A stretch of DNA of 64,000 bases from Pseudomonas sp. MYb118 (lineage in GTDB: Bacteria; Pseudomonadota; Gammaproteobacteria; Pseudomonadales; Pseudomonadaceae), in assembly GCF_040947875.1 (NCBI RefSeq), contig NZ_JBFRXN010000001.1:1116001-1180000 (forward strand). The letters run 5' to 3'. The notes beneath the pieces were generated by a model that worked only from the letters and a program-made list of their open reading frames with translations, had not been told where the DNA came from and ran no database searches. Below are positions 34,596-53,456 of this stretch, piece after piece (within the stretch, counting starts at the first letter, position 1; each line of letters opens with the position of its first letter). Both the position numbers and the translations under genes were made by a program.

Positions 34596-34607
34596 ATACC
34601 AAAGTAT
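34596..34607. promoter_or_regulatory. ATAC-N4-GTAT palindrome upstream of NDH-2-like gene
   Basis: ATACCAAAGTAT, an exact ATAC-N4-GTAT inverted repeat, between the stop of the FixJ-like regulator gene (34628) and the start of the flavoprotein gene (34410). It is one member of a set of such sites in the spacers of this region and a candidate site for a NarL/FixJ-type HTH dimer. Confidence 0.5.
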
Positions 34608-34627
34608 GAGCGCTGGTGGGCGCGGGC

Positions 34628-35278
34628 TCACTGGGGCTGGTCGACACCCAGTGCCTGGGCCATGCGTACCAGGTCGGCGAAGGAGCGCGCGAACATCTTG
34701 CGCATGGCCTGGCCGCGATGGATCTTGACCGTGATTTCGCTCAAACCGATTTCCCCGGCAATCTGCTTGTTCATCAACCCGGATGCCGCCAGCGCCATGA
34801 CGGTCTGCTCCCTGGGCGTGAGGGTGGCGTAGCGGCTGCGCAGTTCTTCATTGCCCCGATCGGACTCGCGACGCTGCTTGTCGCGGGCATGGGCGGCGGA
34901 CACCGCGTCGATCAGGTCCTGCTCCCGAAACGGCTTGGCCAGGAAATCCACGGCGCCGGCCTTCATTGCCCGCACGGTCATGGCGATATCGCCGTGCCCG
35001 GTCATGAACACAATGGGCAGATTGATGTTGGCCGCCAGCAGTTCATGCTGGAAGTCCAGGCCGCTGGTGCCCTGCAACCGCACATCCAGCACCAGGCAGC
35101 TGGGAATGTCGGGCCGGGTGAAACTCATGAACTCGGCGACATTGCCAAACAGCTCCACCTGCAAGCCGATCGAGCGCAGCAGACTGCCGAGCGCCTCGCG
35201 CAGGGGGGCGTCATCATCGACGATGTACACCAGGGGCTCTTGATTGACGATTTTGTTCATGGGGTGCTGTTCGTTCAT
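34628..35278 (-). CDS. FixJ-like response regulator (receiver + LuxR HTH)
   Basis: 216-residue response regulator. The receiver has the acidic pocket DDD (residues 21-23), phospho-acceptor Asp65 (CLVLDVRLQG), Thr/Ser at FMTGHGD and Lys at DFLAKPF. The C-terminal LuxR-type HTH is LTPREQTVMALAASGLMNKQ, then EIGLSEITVKIHRGQAMRKM. It follows the membrane PAS kinase gene by 25 bp on the same strand and is surely its partner. Start 35278 has GGAAGC before it. A close paralog lies at 53519. Confidence 0.93.
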   Translation of the reverse strand: MNEQHPMNKIVNQEPLVYIVDDDAPLREALGSLLRSIGLQVELFGNVAEFMSFTRPDIPSCLVLDVRLQGTSGLDFQHELLAANINLPIVFMTGHGDIAMTVRAMKAGAVDFLAKPFREQDLIDAVSAAHARDKQRRESDRGNEELRSRYATLTPREQTVMALAASGLMNKQIAGEIGLSEITVKIHRGQAMRKMFARSFADLVRMAQALGVDQPQ

Positions 35279-35303
35279 GGAGCTTCCATAGAGTGCGTGA
35301 TCC

Positions 35304-36863
35304 TTAAACAGACGGTTGTTCGTCAGGTGTGCGCGCAGCGGTGCTTGCCACCGGCAGCGAGAATTTGAACGAGGTACCGCGGCCGACGGCGCTGGTGGCC
35401 CAGATCTGGCCGTCGTGAAAATTGATGATCGAGCGGCAGATCGACAGGCCCATGCCCAGGCCGTTCGCCTTGGTGGTGAAAAACGGCGTGAACAGGGAGG
35501 GCAGGACATCGGCGGCAATGCCCGAACCCTGGTCCGCCACTTCCACCACCGCCGCGCCTCCCACCACCCAGGTGCGCACGTACATCACCCGGTCGCGCGT
35601 TTCGGCGCCGTCCATGGCGTGGCAGGCATTGATGATCAGATTAATGATCACCTGCTGCAATTGGACCCGGTCCACGTTGACCTCGTCCGATTGCGCCAGC
35701 AGCTCGACTTTCAAGGTGATCTGATGATGCGCCAGCTCCTGCTGCACCAGGCACAGGGTCTCGCTGACGATGTCGTTTATCGACTCACGCTGGCGCCGTG
35801 GATCACTCTTGCGTGACAGCGCCTTGATGCCACTGATGACGTCGCTCGCCCGGCAGGCGCTGGCAAGGATCCGGTCGAGCGATTGCAGGGCTTCGGGCAA
35901 GTCGGGCTGCGGCCGGTTGAGCCAGCGTCGACAGGCTTCGCTGCTGCTGGTGATCGCTGTCAGCGGTTGATTCACTTCGTGGGCAATCGAGGCCGCCAGC
36001 TCGCCCAGCGAAGTCACCCGGGTGACATGCGCCAGTTGCGTGTGCGCGCAGAACAGCGCCAGCTCGGCTTCCTTGCTCGCGGTAATGTCCATCAGCGCAC
36101 CGATGTAGTCGCAACGCCCGTGCTGTTCGAACAGCGGGCTGGCAATCATATGCACGTACTTGATGCGCCCGTCGGGAAACAGCAGGCGATGCTTGACCTC
36201 GATCAGCTCGGAGCGGGTCGCCGCCTTGGCGAACACTTCGTGGACCAGGTGTACATCGTCGGGGTGAGTCCGCGCCCGCACCATTTCGACCGTTGGCAAT
36301 TCATTCTGCGGGTACTCGAAAATCCGCGACGCTTCCTCAGACCAGGAAATCGCTTTGCCATCCGCGCGAAAACCGATGCTGCCGGTCTGGCTCAAGCGCT
36401 GGGCGCCCAGCAGGTACAACTCGTTGTGGTGCAGGCGCTCGGCCGCATATTTGCTGCGCAGGGCCAGAAAGGTGATGGCCGACAACGCCGTCAGGCAGCG
36501 GAAAAAACCGGTGGTCGACTCCCAGTGGTGATAGCCACCGTTGATCAGATAGGTGGCGGTGAGCAGCAGGATGCACATCAGGGCGATGGAGATCACCACG
36601 TTGATCGAGAACAGATTGGCGGCCATCAGCAGCAGGGTGATGTACAGGATCGTCGGGGCAAGGTCGTTGTGGGTTTCAGAGTTGATCACCACGATCCCGC
36701 AGGCCACCACCAGCCCGATCAACCACCCGAGGGCATTGATCCATGGACTGGGGCTGATGGCGATCACGGCATCGACAAGGTTCGGGCTGCGTGGTGTTCG
36801 GGCAAAGAGGTTGAAAAAAAAGGGCAACGCTTTGCGCGTGCTCGCAGACCGATTGTTTTTCAT
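35304..36863 (-). CDS. Membrane PAS sensor histidine kinase
   Basis: 519-residue inner-membrane kinase. About four to five hydrophobic helices fill residues 30-145; a PAS domain follows (GSIGFRADGKAISWSEEASR...LFPDGRIKYVHMIASPLFEQ); then HisKA with His295 in LAASIAHEVNQPLTAI and the ATPase with NLIINACHAMDG, DQGSGI and GLGMGLSICRSIINFH. The HEVNQPL box places it near FixL/DctB-type kinases. It forms an operon with the FixJ-like gene downstream. The kinase at 40706 is a paralog with the same layout. Two ATAC-N4-GTAT-like sites lie in its promoter spacer. Confidence 0.92.
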   Translation of the reverse strand: MKNNRSASTRKALPFFFNLFARTPRSPNLVDAVIAISPSPWINALGWLIGLVVACGIVVINSETHNDLAPTILYITLLLMAANLFSINVVISIALMCILLLTATYLINGGYHHWESTTGFFRCLTALSAITFLALRSKYAAERLHHNELYLLGAQRLSQTGSIGFRADGKAISWSEEASRIFEYPQNELPTVEMVRARTHPDDVHLVHEVFAKAATRSELIEVKHRLLFPDGRIKYVHMIASPLFEQHGRCDYIGALMDITASKEAELALFCAHTQLAHVTRVTSLGELAASIAHEVNQPLTAITSSSEACRRWLNRPQPDLPEALQSLDRILASACRASDVISGIKALSRKSDPRRQRESINDIVSETLCLVQQELAHHQITLKVELLAQSDEVNVDRVQLQQVIINLIINACHAMDGAETRDRVMYVRTWVVGGAAVVEVADQGSGIAADVLPSLFTPFFTTKANGLGMGLSICRSIINFHDGQIWATSAVGRGTSFKFSLPVASTAARTPDEQPSV

Positions 36864-37003
36864 TATGACCCTGCACATCTGATAGCGGGGGGACGGAGCA
36901 TCGGGAGATATCCTACAAAGCAACGGTTCTCATCCGATAGGACATAAATCCCTGAAAAACGGCCATATTCACCTGTCGACGGGGGCGCCAGTACATCGCT
37001 CCC

Positions 37004-37056
37004 ATACTCAGGTATGAAACGCCAAACCCATGGATGAGCGCGTTGACCTCAGGTAC
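37004..37056. promoter_or_regulatory. Two ATAC-N4-GTAT-type sites in the kinase/LysR spacer
   Basis: ATACTCAGGTAT (37004-37015, exact) and GACCTCAGGTAC (37045-37056, variant) share the core CTCAGGTA and lie 41 bp apart in the 324-bp divergent spacer between the histidine kinase (start 36863) and the LysR gene (start 37188). They suggest autoregulation by the FixJ-like partner and control of the LysR gene. The rest of 36864-37187 shows no gene. Confidence 0.5.
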
Positions 37057-37187
37057 GACATACGTTTGCCGGTCAACGGCATAACCTGCTCATACACCGC
37101 GCATCGTTGCTCCGGATTATTGAAAGGGGGCGAGATGGCACGCCAACCTTCCAACTTCTGAGGCCTCATCGCCGGGCGGTTTCCATG

Positions 37188-38147
37188 ATGAACAGAAATG
37201 ACCTGCGTCGTGCTGACATCAATCTGCTGGTGGTCTTCGAGTCGATGATGCACGAGCGTAATGTCAGCCGTGTCGGCGAGAAGCTTTTCCTCGGTCAACC
37301 GACCATCAGCAGTGCACTGGGGCGTTTGCGCCAGATGTTCGACGATCCGCTGTTCATCCGCTCCGGTCGGGTGATGGAGCCGACGTCACGGGCCGAAGAG
37401 ATTTTTTCCAACCTGGCGCCGGCCCTCGATGGCATCGCGGCGGCCCTGAGTCGTTGTCAGGCGTTCAATCCCGAGACCAGTGAGGCGACGTTCCATGTCG
37501 GCCTGTCGGATGATGTCGAGTACGCGCTGTTTCCTTCTTTGCTGCGGCGTTTGCGGGTGGAAGCACCGAACATGACCCTGGTGGTGCGCCGCGCGGACCA
37601 CTGGCAGATGTCGCAACTGTTGACCTCGGGGGAAATTTCCCTGGGCATCAGCCATACCCTGGACCTGCCCGCCAATGCGCGGCGCAAGGGGCTGCGCCCG
37701 ATTCGCCCGATGCTGCTGCGCGCCGATTCGCAGCCCGGGGAGCTGGACCTCGACGAGTTCTGCCGGCGCCCTAACGCGGTGGTCTCCTCAATGGGCAACG
37801 TTATAGATGAAGTGGATAGCACCTTGAGCCATATCGACCGCCAGCGCAAAGTGGTGCTGACGGTGCCACAGTTCAGCGCGTTGCCGGTGCTCCTGGCCGA
37901 CAGCGACATGATCGCCATTGTCCCTGACTACGTGGCCCGCTCCATGGCCATGATCGACGGACTGCGCGCCGAATTCGCGCCGCTGGACCTGCCGCAGCAG
38001 GAACTGTCGATGGTCTGGCGCGGGGCGACGCACAACGATCCGGCCGAGCGCTGGCTGCGCTCACGTTGCAGCGCGTTCCTGGCCGAACAGGAAGCAGGGG
38101 GGCGGCGGTCGCTGCCGGTCGAAAACACACTTTCATCCGTTGCCTGA
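37188..38147 (+). CDS. NodD-type LysR transcriptional regulator
   Basis: 319-residue LysR protein of the NodD/LeuO subgroup: MNRNDLRRADINLLVVFESM, then RVGEKLFLGQPTISSALGRL as HTH and RQMFDDPLFIRSGRVMEPT. The effector domain is complete. The N-terminus matches the truncated LysR at 20231. ATG 37188 is chosen to agree with that paralog; an ATG directly before it (37185) is equally possible. It ends 27 bp before the mechanosensitive channel gene, so both may be cotranscribed. Confidence 0.9.
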   Translation: MNRNDLRRADINLLVVFESMMHERNVSRVGEKLFLGQPTISSALGRLRQMFDDPLFIRSGRVMEPTSRAEEIFSNLAPALDGIAAALSRCQAFNPETSEATFHVGLSDDVEYALFPSLLRRLRVEAPNMTLVVRRADHWQMSQLLTSGEISLGISHTLDLPANARRKGLRPIRPMLLRADSQPGELDLDEFCRRPNAVVSSMGNVIDEVDSTLSHIDRQRKVVLTVPQFSALPVLLADSDMIAIVPDYVARSMAMIDGLRAEFAPLDLPQQELSMVWRGATHNDPAERWLRSRCSAFLAEQEAGGRRSLPVENTLSSVA

Positions 38148-38174
38148 TCGGGCGTCAATGGCCGGTAACACACC

Positions 38175-39620
38175 ATGCTGAATTTCTTCCAGGCCCACCC
38201 CCTGATCATCGGTGCGGCGCTGATGCTGCTCGACCTGTCGCTCTGGCGCGTGCTGGGCATCGACCGCCCGGTCGTGCGCATGTTTTCGCGCATCGCCGTG
38301 TTCGTGGCATTTTCCTGGGTGCTGACGGCCGCCGGCATCAGCCCGTTGCAGCCGCCGTTGTGGCCCGATGACGCGATCCTCAACCTGATGGCGACGATGA
38401 TCGGCATCGCCTGGTGGTTGTTCGCCGCTCGGACATTGACGGTGGTGCTCGGCAATGGCCTGACCTCGCGCGGCGGCCATACCGCGCGTTTGCTGCACGA
38501 TGTGATCGGCGCGGCGATTTTCCTCATGGCGATCGTCGGCGCGGCGGCGTATGTCCTGCAATTGCCGGTCAAGGGGCTGCTGGCGACTTCCGGGGTGATG
38601 GCGATCGTTGTCGGTCTGGCGTTGCAAAGTACCTTGAGCGACGTGTTCTCCGGCATCGTGCTCAACACCACCAAACCCTACGAAGTGGATGACTGGATCG
38701 TCATTGATGGCGTCGAGGGCCGGGTGGTGGAAATCGACTGGCGCTCAACGCACATGCTGACCAAACTGGGCAGCATGGCCGTTGTCCCCAATTCGCTGGC
38801 GGCCAAAGCCAAGATCCTCAACCTCAGTCGCCCCGGCAATGCCTATGGCGTCAGTGTAGTGATGGCGATTCCCAGCACTGTCCGTCCGCGCAAGGCCATT
38901 GATGCATTGGAAAAAGCCCTGCGAGGCACCCGCGCCTTGCTGCCCGGGTTCACGCCCAAGGTCTCGGTGAAAAGCTCGCACCTGGAATACAACGAATACG
39001 AACTCAAGGGGTTCATCGAGTCGCTGTCGCACAAGACCGAAGTGCGTAACCTGATGTTCGACCTTGCCCATCGTCATCTCGAGGCGGCGGGCGTCAGTTG
39101 GAGCGTGCTGCCCGACGTTCAGACGTGGAATCGGCCGCGCCGCCTGCTGGAAGATGTGCGGGTGTTCCGCTCGCTGAGCCTTGAGGATCGCGACCGCCTG
39201 GCCGACCACATGACCGCCGTGGACTACCAGGCCAACGAAGTCCTGCTGGCGTTCGACGCGGTGTCCGATTGCCTGATGATCATCAGTACCGGGGTGGTCT
39301 CGGTGTCGATCCACGACGGTGAGCGCTTTATCGAAGCCGGGCGCATGGGGCCCGGCGAAGTGCTGGGTGAGGAGGGCATCCTGGCCGAAGGGCGTTCGCG
39401 CGGCGAGTTCCGCAGCCTGACCAGCGGGCGGTTGTTCCGCATCGAGCGCAGCCTGCTGGGTGCGCAACTGGAACACAGCAATGACCTGCACATCGCCCTG
39501 GACAATCTGGTGCACCAGCGCGAAGAAATCCGTGAATCGGTGGTGGCGAAAAAACCGGTGCACACCAAACGCAGCGGTTTTCTCGGCTGGTTGCAGAAAA
39601 AGCGCCTGCCGTCAGCGTGA
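38175..39620 (+). CDS. MscS-family channel with C-terminal cyclic-nucleotide-binding domain
   Basis: 481-residue fusion. The N-terminal third has four to five hydrophobic helices, the last being the MscS pore helix (GLLATSGVMAIVVGLALQST), then LSDVFSGIVLNTTKPYEVDDW, the beta-domain signature of MscS. From about residue 335 follows a cNMP-binding fold: RVFRSLSLEDRDRLADHMTA, ...GPGEVLGEEGILAEGRSRGEF (phosphate-binding cassette region). Such bacterial cyclic-nucleotide-gated channels gate by ligand more than by tension. The 3' end overlaps the convergent GlxA gene by 9 bp. Confidence 0.9.
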   Translation: MLNFFQAHPLIIGAALMLLDLSLWRVLGIDRPVVRMFSRIAVFVAFSWVLTAAGISPLQPPLWPDDAILNLMATMIGIAWWLFAARTLTVVLGNGLTSRGGHTARLLHDVIGAAIFLMAIVGAAAYVLQLPVKGLLATSGVMAIVVGLALQSTLSDVFSGIVLNTTKPYEVDDWIVIDGVEGRVVEIDWRSTHMLTKLGSMAVVPNSLAAKAKILNLSRPGNAYGVSVVMAIPSTVRPRKAIDALEKALRGTRALLPGFTPKVSVKSSHLEYNEYELKGFIESLSHKTEVRNLMFDLAHRHLEAAGVSWSVLPDVQTWNRPRRLLEDVRVFRSLSLEDRDRLADHMTAVDYQANEVLLAFDAVSDCLMIISTGVVSVSIHDGERFIEAGRMGPGEVLGEEGILAEGRSRGEFRSLTSGRLFRIERSLLGAQLEHSNDLHIALDNLVHQREEIRESVVAKKPVHTKRSGFLGWLQKKRLPSA

Positions 39621-40631: not shown

Positions 40632-40705
40632 GACGGCGTGCTCGGTGATCGCAAGGCATTGGTGTGGGGGTGGTTATCTGGCATGTCGAGCGTCGACTGC
40701 CATTT

Positions 40706-42390: not shown

Positions 42391-43578
42391 TCAGTCCATG
42401 TTGAAGTGCGTGTTGATATACATGGGCGAGTCGTAACCTGTGCCCAGGGCTGCGACGCGGCGTTCGATCAGGCGGTCGGAACCACCTTCGGCGACACGGC
42501 GTTCGATGAGGCGGTCGGAGCCACCTTCGGCGACACGGCGCTCGATCAGGCGGTCGGAGCCACCTTCGGCAACGCGGCGTTCGATCAGGCGGTCGGAGCC
42601 ACCTTCGGCAACGCGGCGTTCGATCAGGCGGTCGGAGCCCCCTTCGGCGACACGGCGTTCGATCAGGCGGTCGGAGCCACCTTCGGCGACGCGGCGTTCG
42701 ATGAGGCGATCCGACCCGCCTTCGGCAACGCGACGTTCGATCAGGCGATCCGACCCGCCTTCGGCGACACGGCGTTCCATCAACCGATCCGACCCGCCTT
42801 CGGCAACGCGACGTTCGATCAGGCGATCCGACCCGCCTTCGGCGACACGGCGTTCCATCAACCGATCCGACCCGCCTTCGGCAACGCGACGTTCGATCAG
42901 GCGATCCGACCCGCCTTCGGCAACGCGACGTTCGATCAGGCGATCCGACCCGCCTTCGGCGACACGGCGTTCGATCAGGCGATCCGACCCGCCTTCGGCA
43001 ACGCGGCGTTCGATCAAGCGATCCGACCCGCCTTCGGCGACACGGCGTTCGATGAGGCGGTCGGAGCCACCTTCGGCGACACGGCGTTCGATCAGGCGGT
43101 CGGAACCGCCTTCGGCGACACGACGTTCGATCAGGCGATCCGACCCGCCTTCGGCAACGCGACGTTCGATCAGGCGGTCGGAGCCACCTTCGGCGACACG
43201 GCGTTCGATCAGGCGGTCGGAGCCACCTTCGGCGACACGGCGTTCGATCAGGCGGTCGGAGCCACCTTCGGCGACGCGGCGTTCGATCAGGCGATCCGAG
43301 CCGCCTTCGGCGACACGGCGTTCGATCAGGCGGTCGGAACCACCTTCGGCAACGCGGCGTTCGCTGAGGCGATCCGCGCCTCCTTCAGCGATACGGGTAG
43401 GTGCCGATCGTGGGCGATATTGCTGTTCCGGTGGCTGGGTGTCTTCGTGAGCATTGTTCTCCCGCCCGGCAACGACATTCGGTTCAACGCAGGTTTCGCC
43501 GGCGACAGCGTGCCCTGCGATCAAACCCGTTGCCGCAAGAAAAGCGATGGCCAGGCCGAGATCTTGAGTCTTCATCAT
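42391..43578 (-). CDS. Exported protein of 23 tandem 13-residue repeats
   Basis: 395-residue protein. The N-terminus MMKTQDLGLAIAFLAATGLI..AVAG is a Sec signal peptide; a short acidic/Gln-rich stretch with one Cys follows. Then come one imperfect unit (RIAEGGADRLSER) and 23 units RVAEGGSDRLIER (two with LMER), closing with VAALGTGYDSPMYINTHFNMD. The mature repeats alternate acidic and basic residues and contain no aromatic residue. I do not recognise a function; some short Pseudomonas proteins with similar VAxGG/VAADG units are, as far as I remember, labelled phage infection protein. ATG 43578 follows AGGGTGA; ATG 43575 is also possible. Confidence 0.85.
   Translation of the reverse strand: MMKTQDLGLAIAFLAATGLIAGHAVAGETCVEPNVVAGRENNAHEDTQPPEQQYRPRSAPTRIAEGGADRLSERRVAEGGSDRLIERRVAEGGSDRLIERRVAEGGSDRLIERRVAEGGSDRLIERRVAEGGSDRLIERRVAEGGSDRLIERRVAEGGSDRLIERRVAEGGSDRLIERRVAEGGSDRLIERRVAEGGSDRLIERRVAEGGSDRLIERRVAEGGSDRLIERRVAEGGSDRLMERRVAEGGSDRLIERRVAEGGSDRLMERRVAEGGSDRLIERRVAEGGSDRLIERRVAEGGSDRLIERRVAEGGSDRLIERRVAEGGSDRLIERRVAEGGSDRLIERRVAEGGSDRLIERRVAEGGSDRLIERRVAALGTGYDSPMYINTHFNMD
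42460..43395 (-). repeat. Tandem array of 39-bp coding repeats (24 units)
   Basis: Twenty-four contiguous 39-bp units fill this stretch; the 23 at 42460-43356 encode RVAEGGSDRL(I/M)ER and the one at 43357-43395 is diverged. On the plus strand two unit forms alternate in blocks, one with CGGTCGGAGCCACC and one with CGATCCGACCCGCC. In the leftward frame these differences are almost all synonymous, so the protein is selected while the DNA is mixed by slippage or gene conversion. No spacers exist, so it is not a CRISPR. Confidence 0.95.
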
Positions 43579-43765
43579 ATTCACCCTATGTGGACGGTAG
43601 GCTCTTCCATGAATATCCCGGGCAGGTCGATGCACTATTCATGTTAGCGAGCGTATAAAACTGCAGGAATTGGGTATTGCCGGAACTGACTAAATAGTAA
43701 AGGACTGAACAGTTGCGTCACTTATGCGTAGGGTTTTCTCGCAGGTATCTTTGTATGAGTTACTC

Positions 43766-43862
43766 ACACTTAGGTATTAATGGCGATTAAGCAGAGGCTC
43801 TAACACTGTTTTAGGCCGCTGTAGCGATGGGTTGTTAGATACCCCGATCTATACATATGTAT
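43766..43862. promoter_or_regulatory. Two ATAC-N4-GTAT-type sites between repeat protein and receiver gene
   Basis: ACACTTAGGTAT (43766-43777, one half imperfect) and ATACATATGTAT (43851-43862, exact) lie in the 367-bp divergent spacer 43579-43945, which is richer in A/T than its surroundings and otherwise empty. They place both the tandem-repeat gene and the receiver-only gene among the candidates for joint control by a FixJ/NarL-type regulator. Confidence 0.5.
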
Positions 43863-43945: not shown

Positions 43946-44326
43946 TTGTCAAACGCACCAATCATTTCGATCGTCGATGATGACGACACCGTTCGTACCT
44001 CGCTGGACAGCCTGGTTCGGTCAATGGGCTACAGCGCCAGGACCTACGCCTGTGCCGAGGACTATCTGGCATGTAGCGTTGCTGAATCAACGGCTTGCCT
44101 GATTTCGGATGTGCGCATGCCCGGCATGACCGGCTTTCAGATGTACGAGGCATTGCAGGCGCGCGGTCGACGTCTGCCAGTGATCTTCATCACCGCCTGT
44201 CAGCGCGAAACCACCGAGTTCAAGGCCCGTGAACTGGGCGCTGCCGGCTACTTCAGGAAGCCTTTCAGCGGTCAGCAACTGATGAGCCGCGTGCAGGATG
44301 TCCTGAACGCCGCGGCAGCCGGCTAG
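43946..44326 (+). CDS. Single-domain response regulator (receiver only)
   Basis: 126-residue CheY-like receiver without output domain: acidic residues DDDD (11-14), phospho-acceptor Asp55 (CLISDVRMPGMTG), Thr at FITAC and Lys at GYFRKPFSG. The sequence is FixJ-receiver-like rather than CheY-like. The start is TTG (43946) with AAGGTTGAG before it, giving MSNAPIISIVDDD; no ATG is available before the conserved part. It is divergent from the tandem-repeat gene and may act as a phosphate sink or relay for the island's kinases. Confidence 0.85.
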   Translation: MSNAPIISIVDDDDTVRTSLDSLVRSMGYSARTYACAEDYLACSVAESTACLISDVRMPGMTGFQMYEALQARGRRLPVIFITACQRETTEFKARELGAAGYFRKPFSGQQLMSRVQDVLNAAAAG

Positions 44327-45475: not shown

Positions 45476-46423
45476 TCAGTAATCCCAGAACGCTGCAATC
45501 CAGCGGAACGCGTTGCCGTCGATGGCCACGCGGCCAACGGACGGGAACGGCAGGTGGGTCGCCACGAACAGCTCGCCGCTCGCGGCGGCTTCCTGCATCA
45601 GGCGCACGCGAACCCGGACCGATTCCTCCGGATCATGTTCGAAGCCGTTGTGCCATTCCGGGTGTTCGAAGGCGACGGGGAACAGTGCGTCACCGGCGAA
45701 GGTCAGTTTTTCGCCCGCGGAGTTCACGTAGACCACGCAGTGCCCTGGGGTATGGCCGCCCGTGAGTTTGGCCACCACGCCCGGTGCCACTTCGTACTCG
45801 TCGTCGAACGTGCGCACGTTGCCGCGGTAATCGTTGATGAACTGGTTGGCGGTGGCACGCAGGACATCCGGCACCGGCGACGGCATGTCGGTGTGTTCGA
45901 AGTCCGGCGATTCCCAGAACGCGACTTCAGTCGCCGTCACATGGATGCGCACATCAGGACTCAGGCGCTTCTTCACGTCATCGACCAGCAAGCCGCCGAT
46001 ATGGTCCATGTGCATGTGGGTGATGATGATGTCGGTCACGGAGCCCAGGTCGATACCGGCGTTTTCCAGGCGCTTGGGAAGCTGGCCTGCCCGTGGAAAC
46101 CCGGGGAATTGGCCACCCAGGCCGGCGTCTACCAGGATGGTCTGGTTACCGGTGCGGATGACCAGCACGTTCAGTGCCCAATCGAATGCGTCAGGACCGA
46201 CGAAGATGCTCTCGAACCACTCGCGACGGGTTTGTGGGTCGACGTTGGTGGACATGGTCGAGGTCGGCAGCGGCAGCACGCCATCGCTGACTACCAGCAC
46301 GTCGATCTCGCCAACGCGCAGCGCATAGCGAGAAGGCACCAGCTCTTCGAAACCGGCAGTGCCCGGGTTGAATGCGGTGGTGGGTTCAAGGGCTTGGGGA
46401 TTGGTATCCAGGTGCAAGGTCAT
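45476..46423 (-). CDS. MBL-fold metallo-hydrolase
   Basis: 315-residue metallo-beta-lactamase-fold enzyme. The zinc motif is HMHMDHIGG (H-x-H-x-D-H), with later metal ligands in GGHTPGHCVVY and FAGDALFPV and a terminal ATHLPFPSVG. The layout with a long N-terminal stretch and VLVIRTGNQTILVDAGLG resembles the AttM/AiiA-like and methyl-parathion-hydrolase-like groups, which cleave lactones or phosphotriesters; the substrate is unknown. GGAG precedes the ATG on the coding strand. A half-palindrome ATAC-N4-GTTT lies 240 bp upstream. Confidence 0.88.
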   Translation of the reverse strand: MTLHLDTNPQALEPTTAFNPGTAGFEELVPSRYALRVGEIDVLVVSDGVLPLPTSTMSTNVDPQTRREWFESIFVGPDAFDWALNVLVIRTGNQTILVDAGLGGQFPGFPRAGQLPKRLENAGIDLGSVTDIIITHMHMDHIGGLLVDDVKKRLSPDVRIHVTATEVAFWESPDFEHTDMPSPVPDVLRATANQFINDYRGNVRTFDDEYEVAPGVVAKLTGGHTPGHCVVYVNSAGEKLTFAGDALFPVAFEHPEWHNGFEHDPEESVRVRVRLMQEAAASGELFVATHLPFPSVGRVAIDGNAFRWIAAFWDY

Positions 46424-46662
46424 GGGTCGGTCTCCGGTATTTGGGGCAAAATTTCCGATGAAATTTTTCCTCTGCCCGACGGCTGTTCAATCAGTTGCTG
46501 TCAATCTATCCGCAACTTTCATGGCGTAATCAACGCAGGCCGCTAGTTCAGGCTTGTTATGAGTGCAGCAGGTTGTCTGCTGTAAATTCATAGTATTGGC
46601 GGACCGCCCATGGCGCAGTTCTACGTCGGTTCAGAAAAACCATACGTCAGTGGCATGGGGAT

Positions 46663-46674
46663 ATACGAAGGTTT
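46663..46674. promoter_or_regulatory. ATAC-N4-GTTT variant site upstream of MBL-fold gene
   Basis: ATACGAAGGTTT matches the island palindrome in seven of eight defined positions. It lies in the 272-bp spacer 46424-46695, in which I see no gene, between the MBL-fold gene start and the end of the receiver-only gene. Confidence 0.35.
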
Positions 46675-46695
46675 AAAACAGCATGGGCAATACAT

Positions 46696-47085
46696 TCAAC
46701 GGTGCTGATGGAGGGCCGTTTCGATATAGCTCAGAAGTTTGTTGGTTTCACAGGGTTTAGGCAGATAGGCGATCAGCGTCGGCGACTCGCTGATCGCCTG
46801 GGGAAGGTTTTCGGGGTATGCCGTGATGAAGATCGTGGGAATCCGATGGCCCATTTCGAGCAGATGTTGATGCAGCTCAAGGCCGCTCATTCCGGGCATC
46901 TGAATGTCGGAAATCAGGCAGTCGGTGTGAGCGGGGTCGTTCGAATCCAGAAAGGCCAGCGCACTGCAGTAAGTCTTGATTTTGTAGCCCATGGAACGCA
47001 ACAGATTATCAAGCGCCATCCGCACTGAATCGTCATCATCGACGATTGCAACAATCATCCTGGCGGTGTTCGAGTCCTGGTTCAT
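46696..47085 (-). CDS. Single-domain response regulator (receiver only)
   Basis: 129-residue receiver without output domain: DDDD (16-19), phospho-acceptor Asp60 (CLISDIQMPGMSG), Thr in FITAYPEN and Lys in AYLPKPCET. It is a paralog of the receiver at 43946 (shared SLVRSMGY/NLLRSMGY and CLISD(V/I)). ATG 47085 is chosen; the codon before it in frame, 47088, is TTG. It is divergent from the giant kinase-like gene at 47358 with a palindrome between them, so it is the likely receiver partner of that protein. Confidence 0.88.
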   Translation of the reverse strand: MNQDSNTARMIVAIVDDDDSVRMALDNLLRSMGYKIKTYCSALAFLDSNDPAHTDCLISDIQMPGMSGLELHQHLLEMGHRIPTIFITAYPENLPQAISESPTLIAYLPKPCETNKLLSYIETALHQHR

Positions 47086-47149
47086 CAAGTGTGCTCATGA
47101 AGTTTTCTATCGTGATTACAACATACGCGAAGTGGGTGGGGGTAAAAGT

Positions 47150-47161
47150 ATACCTATGTAT
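47150..47161. promoter_or_regulatory. ATAC-N4-GTAT palindrome between receiver and giant kinase genes
   Basis: ATACCTATGTAT, an exact ATAC-N4-GTAT inverted repeat, lies in the 272-bp divergent spacer 47086-47357: 65 bp before the receiver gene start and 197 bp before the giant kinase start. Confidence 0.5.
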
Positions 47162-47357: not shown

Positions 47358-50300
47358 ATGGATAACGACATGCAGATACTGTGGAACGATGGCGAGCGCA
47401 CGTTCTCTCGAGAGCCGGGCTCGGCGGCGCAGGGCGGCCGTCCGGTGCTGGTGGCGCGGCCGACTGCCGAGCAACCGCTGCCGGCGTGCCTCGGTCGTTT
47501 CGCCCACGAGTTCGCCCTCAAGGATGAACTCGATGGCGCCTGGGCCGTGCGGCCGCTGGAGATGGTGCGAGAAAACGGCCAGATGTATCTGCTGCTGGAG
47601 GACACCGGCGGTACGCCACTGCTGCAATTGTTGAATGCTCCCATGCCCACGGCGACCTTTCTGCGCCTGGCCATCAGCATTGCCCAGGCATTGGGCAAGC
47701 TCCATCAGCGCGGGTTGGTGCACAAGGACATCAAGCCGTCGCACATTCTGGTCAACTGCGCCGATGGCCGGGCTCGCCTGACCGGGTTCGGCCTGGCGTC
47801 GTGGCTGCCCCGCGAGCGCCAGGCGCTGGAAACCATCGCCGGCACGCTGGCTTATATGGCACCCGAGCAGACCGGGCGGATGAATCGTTCGATCGACTTG
47901 CGCAGCGACCTGTATTCCTTCGGTGTCACGCTCTACGAGATGCTCACCGGTTCGTTGCCCTTCATGGCCTCTGACCCGATCGAGTGGGTCCATTGCCACA
48001 TCGCGAAAAAGCCGCAGTCGCCGAGCGAGCGGGTCAAGTCCGTTCCCGACGTGCTGTCCGGGATCGTCATGAAATTGTTGGCCAAGACCGCCGAAGAGCG
48101 TTACCAGACAGCCGCGAGTGTCGAACAGGATCTGCGCCAATGCCTGGCCGACTGGGAGTCGCTGGGGCACATCAATGCATTCGCGCTGGGCGAGCAGGGC
48201 ACCTCCGACCGGTTGATGATTCCCGAGAAACTCTACGGCCGCGAGCAGGAGGTCAGCGCGCTGATCGCTGCGTTCGACCGCAGCATCGCCAGCGGCGCGC
48301 CGGAGCTGATGCTGGTCACCGGTTATTCGGGGATCGGCAAGTCGTCCGTCGTCAATGAACTGCACAAGGCGCTGGTGCCGCCCCGTGGTCTGTTCGCCGC
48401 CGGCAAGTTCGACCAGTACCGGCGCGACATTCCCTATGCCACGCTGGTGCAGGCGTTCCAGAGCCTGGTGCGTACGCTGCTGGGCAAGAACGACGTCGAA
48501 CTGGCGCAGTGGCGCGATGCGCTGCAAGGTGCCCTGGACGCCGAAGCGGGGCTGATGACCGACCTGATACCGGAACTGAAACTGATCATCGGTGAACCGC
48601 CACCGGTGCCTGCCCTGGAGCCACAGCAGGCGCAACGACGGTTCCTCCTGGTGTTCCGACGCTTTATCGGCGTGTTCGCCAGGTCCGAGCATCCACTGGC
48701 ACTGTTTCTGGATGATTTGCAGTGGATCGACGCGGCGACGCTCGATCTGCTGGAAGACCTGCTGACCAGCTCCGACGTGCAGCACCTGTTGCTGGTGGGC
48801 GCCTACCGCAGCAACGAAGTGAATGTCGGCCACTCGCTGACCGGCAAGCTCCAGGCCATTCGCAACAGCGGTGGGCGGATCGACGAAATCACCCTGGCGC
48901 CCCTGGCCAAGGTTCACATCGAGCGGCTGATCGCCGATGCGCTGCACGACGACCTCGTGCACATCGAGCCGTTGGCGCAACTGGTGCTGGAAAAAACCGC
49001 CGGCAATCCGTTCTTCGTCATTCAGTTCCTGCACACCCTGGCCGACGAAAAACTGCTGACCTTCGATCATCAGGTCAGACAGTGGAGCTGGAGCGCCGAA
49101 CGCATCCACGCCAAGGGCTACACCGACAACATTGTCGACCTGATGGTCGGCAAGCTCACCCGCCTGCCACCGGAAACCCAGCACGCGCTGCAACAACTCG
49201 CCTGCCTGGGCAACGTGGCCGGAACCGCGGCGCTTTCGACCGTGCTGGGCATGACCAAGGCCCAGGTGCGCGCGGTGTTCTGGGAGGCCATCCGCCAGGA
49301 ACTGGTGCATCGCCTGGAAGGTGCCTACGGGTTCATGCACGACCGCATTCACGAAGCGGCCTATTCGCTGATTCCCAAGGCCGAGCGACCCGAAGCGCAT
49401 CTGCGCATCGGGCGTTTGCTCGCGGCGCAGACGCCCGAGCATGAACGTGAAGAGGCGATTTTCGAGATCGTCGGCCAGCTCAACCGTGGCGCTGCGCTGT
49501 TGACCGACCGGGACGAACGCGAGCAACTCGCCAGGTTCAACCTGATGGCCGGCCAGCGTGCCAAGGCTTCGACAGCCTACGCCTCGGCCCACAACTACCT
49601 GACCACCGGCGCACAGTTGCTGGACGAGGATTGTTGGGAGCGCCTGCACGATCTGATCTTCGCGCTGGAACTGAACCGGGCCGAATGCGAGCTGCTCACC
49701 GGGCAATTGTCGGTCGCGGAAAAGCGCCTTTCAGCACTGTCGGAGCACGCCACGACGACGATTGAACGGGCGAATGTCGTGTGCCTGCAGGTGGATGACT
49801 ACCTGATGATGGATCGCAGCGATGCGGCGGTCACGGTGTGCCTCGACTATCTGCGGCATGTCGGTATCGAGTGGTCGGCCAGCCCGAGCGACGATGAAGT
49901 ACGCGAAGAGTACGAACGCATATGGAAGTTGCTCGGTAACCGGGAAATCGAATCGCTGATCGACTTGCCCTTGATGCAGGATGACGCTTCGTTGATGACC
50001 GTCAGCGCATTGGGCAAATTGTTCCCGCCGGCGGTGCAAACCAATGCCAACCTGACATGCCTGGTCATCTGCAAGGCGATCAGCCTGTGCCTTGAAGGTG
50101 GCAACTGTGATGCCGCGAGCTTGCACTATGCCAATGCCTTCCGGGTCCTGGGACGGCGTTTCGGTGATTATCAAGCCGGGTTCCGTTTTGGTCAGCTCGG
50201 TTGTGCGCTCGTTGAACAGCGGGGTTTGAAGCGCTTCGAAGCGAGTACTTACCTGTGTTTTTCGATTTTTGCCGTGCGCTGGATGAAGCCCGTCAGCGAG

Positions 50301-52847
50301 TGCCGTGATCTATTGCGCCGTTCGTTCGTGGCGGCGAATCGAATCGGTGATCTGCCCTATGGCGCCTACGCCGGTAACAGTCTGATTTCCGATTTGTTGT
50401 TTGCCGGCGAGCCATTGTCCGAAGTCCAGGCTGAGGCCAAGCGAGGGTTGTCCTACGCACGCAAGGTGCGTTTCGGTCTGGTGATCAGCTTCATGAGCAC
50501 ACAGTCGGCGCTGATCCGCATGCTGCGAGGCCTGACATCGGTCTTCGGGTGCCTCGATGACAGCAAGTTCAACGAGACAGGCATCGAGGCCCATTACGCC
50601 AGCAACCCGGACCTGGCCCTGGCCGAGAGCAAGTACTGGGTGCGCAAGCTCCAGGCCCGCTACATGGCCGACGATTTGCCCACCGCCATGCAGGCGGCCG
50701 ACAAGGCCAGGCAGTTGCTCTGGACCATGAGCCTGTTCTTCGAGGAGGCCGAGTACTACTTCTTTGACGCCCTGACGCGGGCACGCTGGTGCGACAGTCT
50801 GGAAATCGGTGAGCGCGCCCCGCACCTGAGCGCCATGGCCGCCGCACATCAGCAATTGAACACCTGGGCGCAACAGTGCCCGGAAAATTTCGCCAGCCGC
50901 GCCGCTTTGGTCGAAGCCGAAATCGCCCGTGTCGAAGGGCGGATGATCGAGGCCGAGCTGCTGTTCGAACAGGCCATCCACTCGGCGCAAAAAAGCGGCT
51001 TCATTCATATCGAAGCGCTGGCCAACGAGCTGGCTGCGCGGTTCTACGCCGCTCGCGGGCTTGGCAAGGTCGCCAGTGTGTACATGCAGGATGCCCGCTA
51101 CGGCTACCTGCGCTGGGGCGCTGACGGCAAGGTGCGCCAGCTCGAGGCGCGCTACCCGGCGCTGCGTACGGAAACCCAGGCGCTCGGGCCGACGACGACC
51201 ATGGTCGCGCCGGTCGAACACCTCGACCTGGCGACCGTGATCAAGGTTTCCCAGGCAGTGTCGAGTGAAATCGTCCTGGAAAAGCTGATTGACGTGATCA
51301 TGCGCACGGCCATCGAGCAGGCCGGCGCGGAGCGGGGCGTGCTGGTCCTGTCGGACACCGGTGAGCACCGCATCGCCGCGCAAGTGACCACCGGCAGCGA
51401 CTCGATGCAGCTGGGTGATGAACCGATGACATCGGCGCGACTGCCCCAGTCGCTGCTTTACCATGTGTTGCGTACCGGCGAGACCGTATCGCTGGATGAT
51501 GCGATGACCGAACCGGCGTTCGCCGACGACCCTTACATTCGCCAGCGCAATGCGCGCTCGATCCTCTGCCTGCCGCTGATGAACCAGGCCAAGCTGACCG
51601 GCGCGCTCTACCTGGAAAACAACCTGGCCGCGCGGGTATTCAGCCCCACGCGCATTGCCGTGCTCAAGCTGGTGGCCTCGCAGGCGGCGATTTCCCTGGA
51701 AAACGCTCGTCTGTACCGTGAGGTCGCGGAGCGCGAAGGCAAGATCCGCCGTCTGGTGGATGCCAACATCATCGGCATTCTGGTGTGGGACGCCAATGGC
51801 GACATCATCGAGGCCAACGATGCGTTCCTGCGCATGGTGCGTTACGAACGCGAAGACCTGACCTCGGGCCAGTTGCGCTGGCGGGACCTGACCACACCGG
51901 AGTTTCGCGAGATCAGCGAGCGACATCTGGCCCAGGCGGTGCGCACCGGTTATGCGCAACCGTACGAAAAAGAATATTTCACCAAGGACGGTGGGCGCCT
52001 GCCGGTCATCGTCGGCCTGGCCATGTTCGAGGCCAATACCAAGGAAGGCGTGGCCTTCGTCCTCGACCTGACCGAGCGCAAGCAGGCGGAAGAGAAAATC
52101 CGCGACAGCGAGCGGCGTTATCGCGAGGTGCAGACCGAACTGGCCCATGCCAACCGCGTGGCGACCATGGGGCACCTGGTGGCGTCGATTGCCCACGAAG
52201 TCAATCAACCGATCGCCGCCGCCATTCTCAATGCCGACGCGGCCTTGCGCTGGATGAGCCTGCAACCGCCGGAAATCGACGAAGTGCGCACCGTGCTGGG
52301 CAGTCTGATCCAGGACGCCAATCGTGCGGCCGATGTGTTGGGGCGCATTCGTCAACACATTCGCAAGGCGCCACCGCAGAAGGGGCCGGTGGACATCCAT
52401 GCGGCGATCGGCGAAATGATCGAACTCACCCGTGGCCAGGTCAGCAAGAACGGCGCGTCGCTGCTGACCGACATCGAGCAGGCGCTGCCTTCGATCACCG
52501 GAGACCGCGTCGAGCTGCAACAGGTGTTGCTCAACCTGATCATGAACGCCCTCGAAGCCATGAATGGCGTGAGTGACGATGAGCGCCAGTTGCACATCAG
52601 CGCGCGACTGAATGATGCCGGCAGCGTGCTGGTCTGTGTCAGCGACTCGGGGCCGGGGTTCTCTTCGGACAACACCGAGCAGATTTTCGCCTCGTTCTAC
52701 AGCACCAAGCCGACCGGCATGGGCATGGGGCTGTCGATCTGCCGCTCGATTATCGAGGCACATGGTGGCCGCTTGTGGGCCAGCGCCAATACGCCGCGGG
52801 GCGCTGTCGTCCAGTTCACCCTGCCGGTGGAACAGGTCGAGGCGTAA
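47358..52847 (+). CDS. Giant hybrid: kinase-like domain, AAA ATPase, GAF, PAS, histidine kinase
   Basis: 1829-residue cytoplasmic signalling protein. Order: protein-kinase-like domain (about 25-270; VHKDIKPSHI at 121-130, LTGFGLAS at 141-148, YMAPEQTGR at 166-174); AAA/NACHT-like ATPase with Walker A GYSGIGKSS (322-330) and Walker B LALFLDDLQW near 450; a helical TPR-like middle to about 1280; GAF (about 1300-1450); PAS (about 1455-1570); HisKA with His1613 (SIAHEVNQPIAAA); and ATPase with NLIMNALEAM and GMGMGLSICRSIIEAHGG. The kinase-like domain lacks the Asp of DFG (GFG) and the catalytic-loop Asn (His129), so it is probably a pseudokinase. No transmembrane helix is seen. Neighbouring receivers are plausible partners. 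Confidence 0.92.
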   Translation: MDNDMQILWNDGERTFSREPGSAAQGGRPVLVARPTAEQPLPACLGRFAHEFALKDELDGAWAVRPLEMVRENGQMYLLLEDTGGTPLLQLLNAPMPTATFLRLAISIAQALGKLHQRGLVHKDIKPSHILVNCADGRARLTGFGLASWLPRERQALETIAGTLAYMAPEQTGRMNRSIDLRSDLYSFGVTLYEMLTGSLPFMASDPIEWVHCHIAKKPQSPSERVKSVPDVLSGIVMKLLAKTAEERYQTAASVEQDLRQCLADWESLGHINAFALGEQGTSDRLMIPEKLYGREQEVSALIAAFDRSIASGAPELMLVTGYSGIGKSSVVNELHKALVPPRGLFAAGKFDQYRRDIPYATLVQAFQSLVRTLLGKNDVELAQWRDALQGALDAEAGLMTDLIPELKLIIGEPPPVPALEPQQAQRRFLLVFRRFIGVFARSEHPLALFLDDLQWIDAATLDLLEDLLTSSDVQHLLLVGAYRSNEVNVGHSLTGKLQAIRNSGGRIDEITLAPLAKVHIERLIADALHDDLVHIEPLAQLVLEKTAGNPFFVIQFLHTLADEKLLTFDHQVRQWSWSAERIHAKGYTDNIVDLMVGKLTRLPPETQHALQQLACLGNVAGTAALSTVLGMTKAQVRAVFWEAIRQELVHRLEGAYGFMHDRIHEAAYSLIPKAERPEAHLRIGRLLAAQTPEHEREEAIFEIVGQLNRGAALLTDRDEREQLARFNLMAGQRAKASTAYASAHNYLTTGAQLLDEDCWERLHDLIFALELNRAECELLTGQLSVAEKRLSALSEHATTTIERANVVCLQVDDYLMMDRSDAAVTVCLDYLRHVGIEWSASPSDDEVREEYERIWKLLGNREIESLIDLPLMQDDASLMTVSALGKLFPPAVQTNANLTCLVICKAISLCLEGGNCDAASLHYANAFRVLGRRFGDYQAGFRFGQLGCALVEQRGLKRFEASTYLCFSIFAVRWMKPVSECRDLLRRSFVAANRIGDLPYGAYAGNSLISDLLFAGEPLSEVQAEAKRGLSYARKVRFGLVISFMSTQSALIRMLRGLTSVFGCLDDSKFNETGIEAHYASNPDLALAESKYWVRKLQARYMADDLPTAMQAADKARQLLWTMSLFFEEAEYYFFDALTRARWCDSLEIGERAPHLSAMAAAHQQLNTWAQQCPENFASRAALVEAEIARVEGRMIEAELLFEQAIHSAQKSGFIHIEALANELAARFYAARGLGKVASVYMQDARYGYLRWGADGKVRQLEARYPALRTETQALGPTTTMVAPVEHLDLATVIKVSQAVSSEIVLEKLIDVIMRTAIEQAGAERGVLVLSDTGEHRIAAQVTTGSDSMQLGDEPMTSARLPQSLLYHVLRTGETVSLDDAMTEPAFADDPYIRQRNARSILCLPLMNQAKLTGALYLENNLAARVFSPTRIAVLKLVASQAAISLENARLYREVAEREGKIRRLVDANIIGILVWDANGDIIEANDAFLRMVRYEREDLTSGQLRWRDLTTPEFREISERHLAQAVRTGYAQPYEKEYFTKDGGRLPVIVGLAMFEANTKEGVAFVLDLTERKQAEEKIRDSERRYREVQTELAHANRVATMGHLVASIAHEVNQPIAAAILNADAALRWMSLQPPEIDEVRTVLGSLIQDANRAADVLGRIRQHIRKAPPQKGPVDIHAAIGEMIELTRGQVSKNGASLLTDIEQALPSITGDRVELQQVLLNLIMNALEAMNGVSDDERQLHISARLNDAGSVLVCVSDSGPGFSSDNTEQIFASFYSTKPTGMGMGLSICRSIIEAHGGRLWASANTPRGAVVQFTLPVEQVEA

Positions 52848-52870
52848 TACTTAGGTTTGCACTGAGGTAT
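52847..52870. promoter_or_regulatory. Two adjacent ATAC-N4-GTAT-type sites before the LRAT-like gene
   Basis: ATACTTAGGTTT (52847-52858) and GCACTGAGGTAT (52859-52870) stand directly side by side, each with one imperfect half. They begin at the last base of the giant kinase stop codon and end 89 bp before the LRAT-like gene. The tandem phasing supports cooperative binding by a FixJ/NarL-type dimer. Confidence 0.5.
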
Positions 52871-52959
52871 ATGAATGGTCGTTTGAAGTAGTCACAGGTA
52901 CAAATGTAGTGCCGCAACCCCAGCGATATAGTCGTTTCAAGGGTTGCGGAGAATGTATC

Positions 52960-53421
52960 GTGAATACGCTGGCCATGAAGTTGACGAGTGGGTGCCTGGA
53001 CCTGATGCAAACCGACGCGCAAGCTGACAACTTGCCGGTCGGTTGCCATCTGGTCAGCCCCAGAGGTTTTTACTTGCACCACGGCATCTACCTGGGTGGC
53101 GGCGAGGTCATTCATTACTCCGGGTTCAGCGGTTCGTTCAGGGCCGGGCCGGTGGAAGTGGTCGGTCTTGAACAGTTTGCCAATGGCCGGTCCATCTGGA
53201 TCGTGCAGGAGGCCCGGGAATATTCGGATGATGAAGTGGTCAGCCGTGCCCGCTCGAGGGTAGGGGAGAGCCGATACAGCGTGTTCTCCAACAACTGTGA
53301 GCATTTCTGCAACTGGTGCATCAGCGGCAAAAGTTGCAGTGCGCAGATCAGGGCATTGTTCCATTACCCGCGTTACTGGCTGTCGCTGGTTTCGGCGCTG
53401 CACCTGTCCTTCATCGCGTGA
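52960..53421 (+). CDS. LRAT/H-rev107-like protein (NlpC/P60 superfamily)
   Basis: 153-residue protein with the papain-like LRAT fold. It shows LPVGCHLVSPRGFYLHHGIYLGGGEVIHYSG, whose HHGIYLG carries the catalytic His, and NNCEHFCNWCISG, the NCEHF box with the nucleophile Cys. Eukaryotic relatives are acyltransferases or phospholipases using a thioester; bacterial roles are little known. A hydrophobic C-terminal stretch (YWLSLVSALHLSFIA) may touch membranes. Start GTG 52960 is chosen for GGAG at 52948-52951; ATG 52975 and an upstream ATG 52909 also exist. Confidence 0.78.
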   Translation: MNTLAMKLTSGCLDLMQTDAQADNLPVGCHLVSPRGFYLHHGIYLGGGEVIHYSGFSGSFRAGPVEVVGLEQFANGRSIWIVQEAREYSDDEVVSRARSRVGESRYSVFSNNCEHFCNWCISGKSCSAQIRALFHYPRYWLSLVSALHLSFIA

Positions 53422-53444
53422 ATGTCCGCATATTTCCAATGGAT

Positions 53445-53456
53445 TTACGCAAGTTT
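53445..53456. promoter_or_regulatory. Degenerate island palindrome upstream of FixJ-like gene
   Basis: TTACGCAAGTTT matches ATAC-N4-GTAT in six of eight positions and lies 62 bp before the FixJ-like regulator gene at 53519. Weak on its own, it is listed because all other spacers of the island hold better copies. Confidence 0.25.

Follow-up and report, generated by a model that had tools for sequence, protein, structure and literature searches.

The closest described relatives of the regulators discussed here form the StyR group, which, in the available parts of the published accounts, reads ATAAACN4GTTTAT through Lys175, Val176 and His179 (PMC5874301); StyR activates from a site near -40, its phosphorylated form (StyR-P) activating from STY2 and repressing once STY1 is also filled (PMC2442086). 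Here we describe a 64,000-nt stretch of the Pseudomonas sp. MYb118 genome (the window; positions 1116001 to 1180000 of contig C1 in the 6.58-Mb source genome, labelled G000), in which the palindrome ATAC-N4-GTAT (ATACNNNNGTAT) recurs in the spacers of a signalling island that encodes two FixJ-type response regulators. We propose, with a probability of roughly 0.8, that this palindrome is the high-affinity operator of these StyR-like regulators and that it is built into ladder promoters with a 21-bp pitch. The two regulators are:

34628..35278 (- strand): FixJ-type response regulator (receiver + GerE; Pfam), likely reader of the sites
53519..54169 (+ strand): second FixJ-type response regulator, 63% identical to the first (Pfam)

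Both proteins score above the cut-offs of PF00072 and PF00196, which places them in the NarL/FixJ family, and their recognition helices (SEITVKIHRGQAMRKM and SEITVKIHRGHAMKKM) share 14 of 16 residues; an earlier reading of the letters alone (the sequence-only reading) had called these helices identical, which is nearly but not exactly the case. Their closest solved match is 1yio/1zn2, which we take to be StyR. By sequence they belong to the same subfamily as StyR, TodT, TutB and TmoT, and the likeness extends to the operators, both even-centred with an AC-N4-GT core, and to an activating position near -40/-42, which is here predicted from the -10 spacing. There are also a number of differences: (i), the StyR/TodT-type core AAAC-N4-GTTT occurs 6 times in 40 Pseudomonas loci, versus 84 times for ATAC-N4-GTAT; (ii), StyR positions 175-179 read K-V-H-R-H, versus K-I-H-R-G in the window proteins (counted by hand on the alignment), so that at positions 175, 176 and 179 Lys, Val and His correspond to Lys, Ile and Gly and two of the three contacts differ; (iii), the StyR group controls aromatic catabolism, whereas the window system has other targets, and the available parts of the sources describe no 21-bp ladder for the StyR group. 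From this comparison we infer a mechanism like that of StyR, and do not count the window proteins among the StyR group. Which residue a helix carries at the position of StyR His179 was rejected as a predictor of a nearby site: helices reading HRG, HRS or HRA each occur in loci that have a site within 4 kb and in loci that have none.

The rhizobial FixL/FixJ pair resembles the window in that a receiver-GerE regulator stands beside a PAS histidine kinase, with FixJ and FixL as best NCBIfam matches; however, the regulators reach 186.9 and 195.1 bits against a cut-off of 255 for the rhizobial FixJ equivalog NF006900, and the kinase reaches 200 bits against 850 for the FixL model. Rhizobial FixJ operators and targets differ from those of the window. 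PhoB, OmpR and DosR use tandem, helically phased arrays with a pitch of about two turns, strong and weak sites, and a last site beside the -35 region, whereas here each rung is an inverted palindrome that would suit a NarL/FixJ-type dimer. Searches of the open full-text literature with several spellings of the site returned no relevant paper (matches in papers on betalain synthesis and on a Thermus CsoR-family regulator were judged unrelated by title), and the gene combination gave nothing on this system among the matches listed. In its available part PMC12124856 concerns another FixJ-family protein, and that of PMC4861429 describes no operator boxes. The operator, the regulon and the ladder grammar appear to be new, phased response-regulator operators as such being already known.

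A conserved site in intergenic spacers

The exact palindrome occurs four times in the window, at the places the sequence-only reading had given, against a mean of 0.04 in 100 dinucleotide shuffles, none of which reached four; counting up to one mismatch, there are 13 sites against 3.6 expected. All four exact copies lie in spacers, as had been claimed, according to our own codon-usage gene caller, which is crude and whose calls are approximate throughout. The whole genome holds 19 exact places (reversed control: 4). Of the 15 that lie beyond the island, 9 fall in called genes and 5 in spacers, with 1 unassigned; most of them are thus coding background, and the 12-mer alone is a non-specific genome-wide predictor. 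Unlike the lone 12-mer, its clustering in this island is specific; the motif reaches beyond the island, being also found at C1:449718 and at C4:316-336 kb.

Variants were scored with a matrix built from 156 exact sites outside the window, in which conserved flank preferences around the core are only weak. Among the variants first listed from sequence, 46663 (15.5), 43766 (14.0) and 52847 (12.1) score strongly, all in spacers; 52859 is weak (7.2, rank 12) and 53445 does not stand out and is not a site (3.5, rank 34). Position 37045 is no free-standing site (-4.0, rank 451), yet it forms the third rung of the array led by 37004. The matrix also surfaced 34429 (10.9), absent from the earlier list. 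Genome-wide, among the matches listed, the background of variants was too high to use.

Homologues of the 34628 regulator at E<=1e-60 are found in 29 of 119 genomes of the genus (FixJ+ genomes, the others being FixJ-), at 39 places of which two are the window's own; 31 of the other 37 were taken as stretches of up to 20 kb, six with 53-55% identity being left out. Exact sites are present in 29 of these 31 homologous stretches, 55 in 0.58 Mb where the reversed control has none, showing that the sites are conserved in related Pseudomonas. A further sample, the best 80 of 583 loci in GTDB genomes fetched by FixJ-type homology, comprises 40 from Pseudomonas and 40 from other taxa (Duganella, Massilia, Burkholderiaceae, Bradyrhizobium, Ancylobacter and more). 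The Pseudomonas set holds 84 exact sites, 81 in spacers, across 35 loci, and the other set 31, 30 in spacers, across 19. In both sets gaps of 2, 3, 5 or 6 yield 0 to 4 copies and the reversed control 0, 111 of the 115 gap-4 copies lie in spacers, and, when 256 half-sites are compared at gaps 0-12 in the spacers, ATAC with gap 4 has the top excess over the same half-site at other gaps. As some GTDB loci share species with the genus stretches, copies with identical 72-bp contexts were merged; this left 165 distinct sites, 4 coding, from 113 loci. ATAC-N4-GTAT is a real, conserved DNA site.

These counts bear on two simpler explanations. Chance clustering in AT-richer spacers could be argued from the other exact copies in the genome, 9 of 15 in called genes, but the expectation of 0.04 in the window, the gap-4 specificity, the reversed control and the phylogenetic conservation leave it next to no credence. 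Scarcely more credible is a dispersed repeat, REP-like (repetitive extragenic palindromic) or mobile, concentrated in this neighbourhood: inverted GAGC/GCGA arms are abundant in Pseudomonas loci, where GAGC with gap 2 exceeds the motif in raw number (90 copies versus 81), as G+C-rich arms do in the non-Pseudomonas set, but conservation of the flanks is weak beyond the core of the palindrome, its distance to -10 hexamers is fixed, and exact copies are absent from the same genes in FixJ- genomes.

The genes facing the sites are most commonly single-domain receivers (43 in 39 loci); these form a cluster of 61 with FixJ-type regulators, which number 18 in as many loci. LysR-type regulators (24), NDH-2-like oxidoreductases (22), PAS kinases (18) and the large Ser/Thr-His kinase (6) also face sites. 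The sequence comparisons suggest that ATAC-N4-GTAT is most likely the docking place of FixJ-type response regulators.

Promoter grammar and the window's ladders

TAnnnT hexamers, taken as predicted -10 elements, stand at preferred distances from the motif centre. Across all gene-facing promoters (127 non-redundant of 176), the offsets peak at 30/31 (33 promoters) and 73/74 (32), with small peaks at 45/46 (12) and 51/52 (9). In the cluster of receiver and FixJ genes (48 non-redundant of 63 promoters) the hexamer starts 30 or 31 nt past the centre in 27 of 48, against a mean of 0.29 at other offsets; single receivers have it there in 25 of 33 non-redundant promoters (mean 0.20 elsewhere), and FixJ-type genes at 30/31 in 2 of 15 and at 72-74 in 7 of 15. 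Degenerate copies of the motif occur at +21 (mean 4.25/8) and +42 (3.50) in 73-class promoters (n=36), versus 1.84 (standard deviation 0.40), at +21 in the 52 class (n=8) and at -21 in the 30 class (n=33). From these class-wise positions it follows that the pitch is 21 bp and that about 31 bp separate the last rung from the -10 hexamer downstream, whichever rung is strong; a 46 class (5 of 127) is off the ladder.

The spacing recurs in a set of sites not used above, one-mismatch spacer sites more than 150 bp from any exact site: the hexamer is at 72-74 in 17 of 79 non-redundant sites (about 1.3 expected) and at 30/31 in 4, and the coding one-mismatch control gives 1 at each among 176 site directions. 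When sites at least 60% identical to exact-led promoters are dropped, 72 are left, 10 with the hexamer at 72-74 (about 1.1 expected) and 4 with it at 30/31; an identity limit of 45% leaves 65, with 5 and 3. With 6-of-8 matches the grammar is not clear (11 at 72-74 versus about 4 expected).

We hypothesize that a phosphorylated FixJ-type dimer would grip the two inverted half-sites, and that a ladder promoter would comprise one strong site and none to two degenerate copies at a pitch of 21 bp, that is two helical turns on the same face of the DNA. The last rung, some 31 bp before the -10 hexamer, would then lie near -42, beside the -35 region; binding would be nucleated at the strong site, dimers would fill the weak rungs towards -42, and the last-rung dimer could activate RNA polymerase. 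Binding, cooperativity, activation and feedback are what this model adds to the computed sites, conservation, FixJ co-occurrence, 21-bp pitch and -10 spacing. Alternatively, the FixJ-type protein could bind and mainly repress, or the array could activate or repress by occupancy, as for StyR, where StyR-P switches from activation at STY2 to repression when STY1 is filled too (available part of PMC2442086). Multi-site arrays would suit such concentration-dependent switching; yet the constant distance from last rung to -10 is that of a classical activating position, found, on predicted -10s, in most of the 127 promoters, and we consider this alternative improbable.

Read by the ladder grammar, 6 of the 13 site directions shown in the window fit. 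The elements and genes are as follows (rungs and hexamers are grammar readings unless another basis is given; offsets are from the leading site, n/8 is the match to the core):

33205..34410 (-): NDH-2-like pyridine nucleotide-disulphide oxidoreductase (Pfam PF07992)
34523..34528 (-): NDH-2 -10-like hexamer TAGCAT, 73 nt past the leading-site centre
34554..34565 (-): NDH-2 array, third rung at +42, GACCCTATGTAG, 4/8
34575..34586 (-): NDH-2 array, second rung at +21, ACACCAAGGCGT, 5/8
34596..34607 (-): NDH-2 array, leading strong site ATACTTTGGTAT (exact match; homologous promoters)
35304..36863 (-): PAS sensor histidine kinase (best NCBIfam match FixL, far under cut-off)
37004..37015 (+): LysR array, leading strong site, between the PAS kinase and LysR genes (exact match)
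37024..37035 (+): LysR array, second rung at +20, AAACCCATGGAT, 6/8
37045..37056 (+): LysR array, third rung at +41, GACCTCAGGTAC, 4/8 (similar rung in other LysR promoters)
37082..37087 (+): LysR -10-like hexamer TAACCT at +72
37185..38147 (+): LysR-type regulator, candidate target (Pfam)
42391..43578 (-): tandem-repeat (PtrA-like) protein with a signal-peptide-like start (whole-protein match to NF041599)
43694..43699 (-): PtrA-like gene, -10-like hexamer TACTAT at +72
43724..43735 (-): PtrA-like gene array, third rung at +42, AACCCTACGCAT, 5/8
43745..43756 (-): PtrA-like gene array, second rung at +21, ATACAAAGATAC, 6/8
43766..43777 (-): PtrA-like gene array, leading one-mismatch site ATACCTAAGTGT (one-mismatch scan)
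43851..43862 (no strand): exact site without a -10 at the expected spacing in either direction (exact match)
43946..44326 (+): single-domain receiver (Pfam receiver only)
45476..46423 (-): metallo-beta-lactamase-fold (MBL) hydrolase (best NCBIfam match AidB lactonase, far under cut-off)
46590..46595 (-): MBL -10-like hexamer TACTAT at +73
46621..46632 (-): MBL array, third rung at +42, GAACCGACGTAG, 5/8
46642..46653 (-): MBL array, second rung at +21, CCACTGACGTAT, 6/8
46663..46674 (-): MBL array, leading one-mismatch site AAACCTTCGTAT (one-mismatch scan)
46696..47085 (-): single-domain receiver (Pfam receiver only)
47120..47125 (-): receiver 46696, -10-like hexamer TATGTT at +30
47150..47161 (-): strong site in the single-rung position for receiver 46696, with a degenerate copy (5/8) 21 bp upstream (exact match)
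47358..52847 (+): Ser/Thr kinase - AAA - GAF - PAS - histidine kinase (Pfam)
52847..52858 (+): LRAT-like gene array, leading one-mismatch site (one-mismatch scan)
52869..52880 (+): LRAT array, second rung at +22, ATATGAATGGTC, 4/8, a match reached at 19% of random places
52890..52901 (+): LRAT array, third rung at +43, AGTCACAGGTAC, 5/8
52927..52932 (+): LRAT -10-like hexamer TATAGT at +74
52960..53421 (+): LRAT-domain protein, GTG start behind GCGGAG (Pfam, sequence reading)

The NDH-2-like gene is read as starting at the ATG at 34410, behind AGGAG, where the gene caller had 34356, and TATAGT at +74 is in keeping with a start of the LRAT gene at GTG 52960. Receivers 43946 and 46696 both retain the acidic residues, Asp, Thr and Lys expected of a functional receiver. 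The repeat protein is matched over its whole length by NF041599, a model of the PtrA N-terminal domain, with no single stretch passing alone; its gene contains about 24 copies of a 39-bp unit at 42452-43396 (89% matches), and similar proteins were matched in three other loci (L054, L063 and L065).

The NDH-2 promoter and the identity of the reader

Because sampling loci through FixJ biases co-occurrence, association with the regulator was also assessed from the target side, with the NDH-2-like gene. Homologues at E<=1e-150 are found in 60 of the 119 genomes, and the best 30 loci were examined. In all 21 loci of FixJ+ genomes the upstream spacer carries a site, exact in 16 and one-mismatch in 5, and a TAnnnT hexamer follows 72-74 nt past its centre. 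Among the nine of FixJ- genomes none has an exact site and none a correctly spaced one; two (G089 and G015) share a one-mismatch copy, some 140 bp upstream, that lacks both rungs and -10 spacing. The association is significant by Fisher's test (1.4e-4 for exact sites only, 1.8e-5 with one mismatch allowed). One FixJ+ genome (G049) has the site at an NDH-2 gene that is 312 kb away from fixJ and surrounded by different genes. When exact or spaced sites are counted, FixJ agrees with the NDH-2 site in 30 of 30 loci.

A different reader could be imagined, namely the LysR-type protein (37185) or an AraC/GlxA-like protein (39612), with FixJ merely travelling along. LysR indeed often lies nearby and has a site in the promoter of its own gene (24 loci), and an exact site stands near its homologues of at least 61% identity in 13 of 13 fetched FixJ+ loci and 0 of 16 FixJ- loci (L205, at 61%, has a one-mismatch copy upstream). 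However, LysR at this identity is discordant with the NDH-2 site in 7 of the 30 loci, being absent from seven FixJ+ genomes whose NDH-2 has the site, and AraC (E<=1e-135) is discordant in 5, absent from two site-bearing FixJ+ genomes (G021, G083) and present in three FixJ- genomes with a site-free NDH-2 (G007, G082, G099). Moreover, the LysR box is an odd-centred T-N11-A palindrome, while the motif is even-centred with gap 4 only. We regard this alternative as unlikely, somewhat more so than repression. A single regulon read by the two FixJ-like proteins, as the sequence-only reading had proposed, is well supported by the conserved orthologous spacers, the NDH-2 test and the StyR/TodT-like N4 geometry, the binding itself being predicted.

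Sites beyond the window and a possible stress regulon

About 0.7 Mb from the window, a nitric-oxide reductase gene (757 aa, NorB cytochrome c-like domain), presumably of the quinol type (qNOR) from its length and form, is preceded by a three-rung array (ATACCTGCGTAT, AAACCTACACAT and GACCCTGCGTAC; motif at C1:449718) followed by TACATT at +73 (gene under its array: L242:2986-5730, that is G000:C1:446985-449729). The same three-rung ladder stands before qNOR in G088, with the -10 at +73, and a two-rung version in G002, with the same TACATT at +52. About 230 bp between array and gene, with a terminator in G000, are missing from the G002 and G088 alignments; a small RNA between array and gene was considered and rejected, as there is no Rfam match there and the omitted stretch holds the terminator. 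No exact site is present in the fetched qNOR locus of G054 (FixJ-, 79%) or in that of the own genome's second reductase copy (C3:246575, 91%). In the same locus as the first copy, a ROSE_3 RNA thermometer scores above the gathering threshold at L242:2421-2492, before a 134-aa gene.

A second island (L046, G000:C4:316000-335999) encodes a catalase, an OsmC/Ohr-type protein, an epoxide-hydrolase operon with cytochrome P460, and a trio consisting of a PAS kinase, a single receiver and a third FixJ-type regulator with the helix SEITVKAHRG. Close homologues of this third regulator occur in 5 of the 119 genomes, each of which is FixJ+ by the window regulator as well. An ACAC variant of the box precedes the kinase in 5 of 5 genomes, and the exact box precedes the epoxide hydrolase in 4 of 4 where the gene lay in the stretch. 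Since these conserved boxes have no -10 spacing in any genome (a further ACAC box, in G010 alone, has TACACT at +30), the second island shares the box and not the grammar. Among exact spacer sites outside the window's island (L003, L004, L010, L013 and L046:5639) only that of L003 fits. Seven stretches from the genome-wide variant list comprise four without and three with sites of at least 7/8 near the middle: L236 (one coding and one spacer site) and L238 (coding) have no grammar fit, and in L237 ATACCTATGGAT has TAGTTT at +31 towards a gene 174 bp away, with no rungs.

Like the unspaced boxes of the second island, several further results weigh against our proposal. In the window there is no grammar fit for 34429, for 43851 in both directions, for 52859, for 43766 towards the receiver, for 37004 towards the PAS kinase or for 47150 towards the large kinase, and 45 of the 127 promoters have no -10 at any spacing tested. 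On the side without a called gene the same offsets peak too, more weakly (30: 10, 73: 6, 31: 5 of 106), making this control unclean; these peaks are perhaps due to missed small genes. Exact sites are absent from all 4 short loci among the six left-out 53-55% homologues, from the 3.1-kb qNOR locus of G028 (FixJ+, 80% identical protein), and from 21 of the 40 non-Pseudomonas loci, including all 8 with helix TVKIHRGHI. A variant-box scan of the exact-site-free loci gave repeat-like arms in 11 alphaproteobacterial loci (mostly Bradyrhizobium) and nothing clear in 9 of Burkholderiaceae; exact-site-free loci do include three one-mismatch promoters with a correctly spaced -10 (L110, L146 and L162). 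Genome-wide, the mean excess over the reversed control is 9.8 in the 29 FixJ+ versus 4.9 in the 90 FixJ- genomes, and because these counts differ only moderately, similar boxes may serve other FixJ paralogues, or the background may differ. Finally, co-occurrence is biased by FixJ-based fetching everywhere except in the NDH-2 test, whose sample of best matches left out lower-ranking ones, including second copies in FixJ+ genomes.

The candidate targets would be the single-domain receivers, LysR, the NDH-2-like oxidoreductase, the PAS kinase and the fixJ genes themselves, with the MBL, LRAT and PtrA-like genes as additional candidates in the window. As receivers with intact phosphorylation residues are the commonest targets, they suggest feedback: the regulon-encoded receivers would probably compete for phosphate. 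Our guess at the signal, from NDH-2, nitric-oxide reductase, catalase and Ohr, is respiratory redox or reactive-species stress. It is possible, and we put this forward as a tentative proposal more likely to need revision than to stand as it is, that the sites define an undescribed redox/nitric-oxide stress regulon across gamma-, beta- and alphaproteobacteria, in which rung number and strength would set thresholds, fixJ would regulate itself via a ladder and the receivers would drain phosphate to reset the system; the three-rung (+73) qNOR promoters in G000 and G088 and their two-rung (+52) counterpart in G002 would then be natural variants of one ladder. What the analysis offers is a readable operator and promoter grammar for a FixJ-type group without assigned targets found in our literature searches, and because they are readable, the sequence could be used to predict regulon members, both in many environmental Pseudomonas and in some other Proteobacteria. 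Promoters with one, two and three sites would also form a compact natural series for studying how a response regulator's dose is read.

Some minor features lie beside this system. A block like TTTCAGGGATTTATGTCCTA upstream of the PAS kinase (36920-36965), also present in L053, L061, L091, L094 and L098, is unrelated to the motif; it is perhaps another regulator's site or the promoter itself. A Fic-domain protein is encoded at 55069-56445, downstream of the second FixJ-type regulator. Elsewhere in the genome, among the matches listed, ATACATAGGTTTAA and ACACTGAGGTGCGA stand exactly 1460 bp apart at G000:C2:786383, 1112485, 1885673 and 2475578; we take these pairs to be, probably, multicopy rRNA operons.

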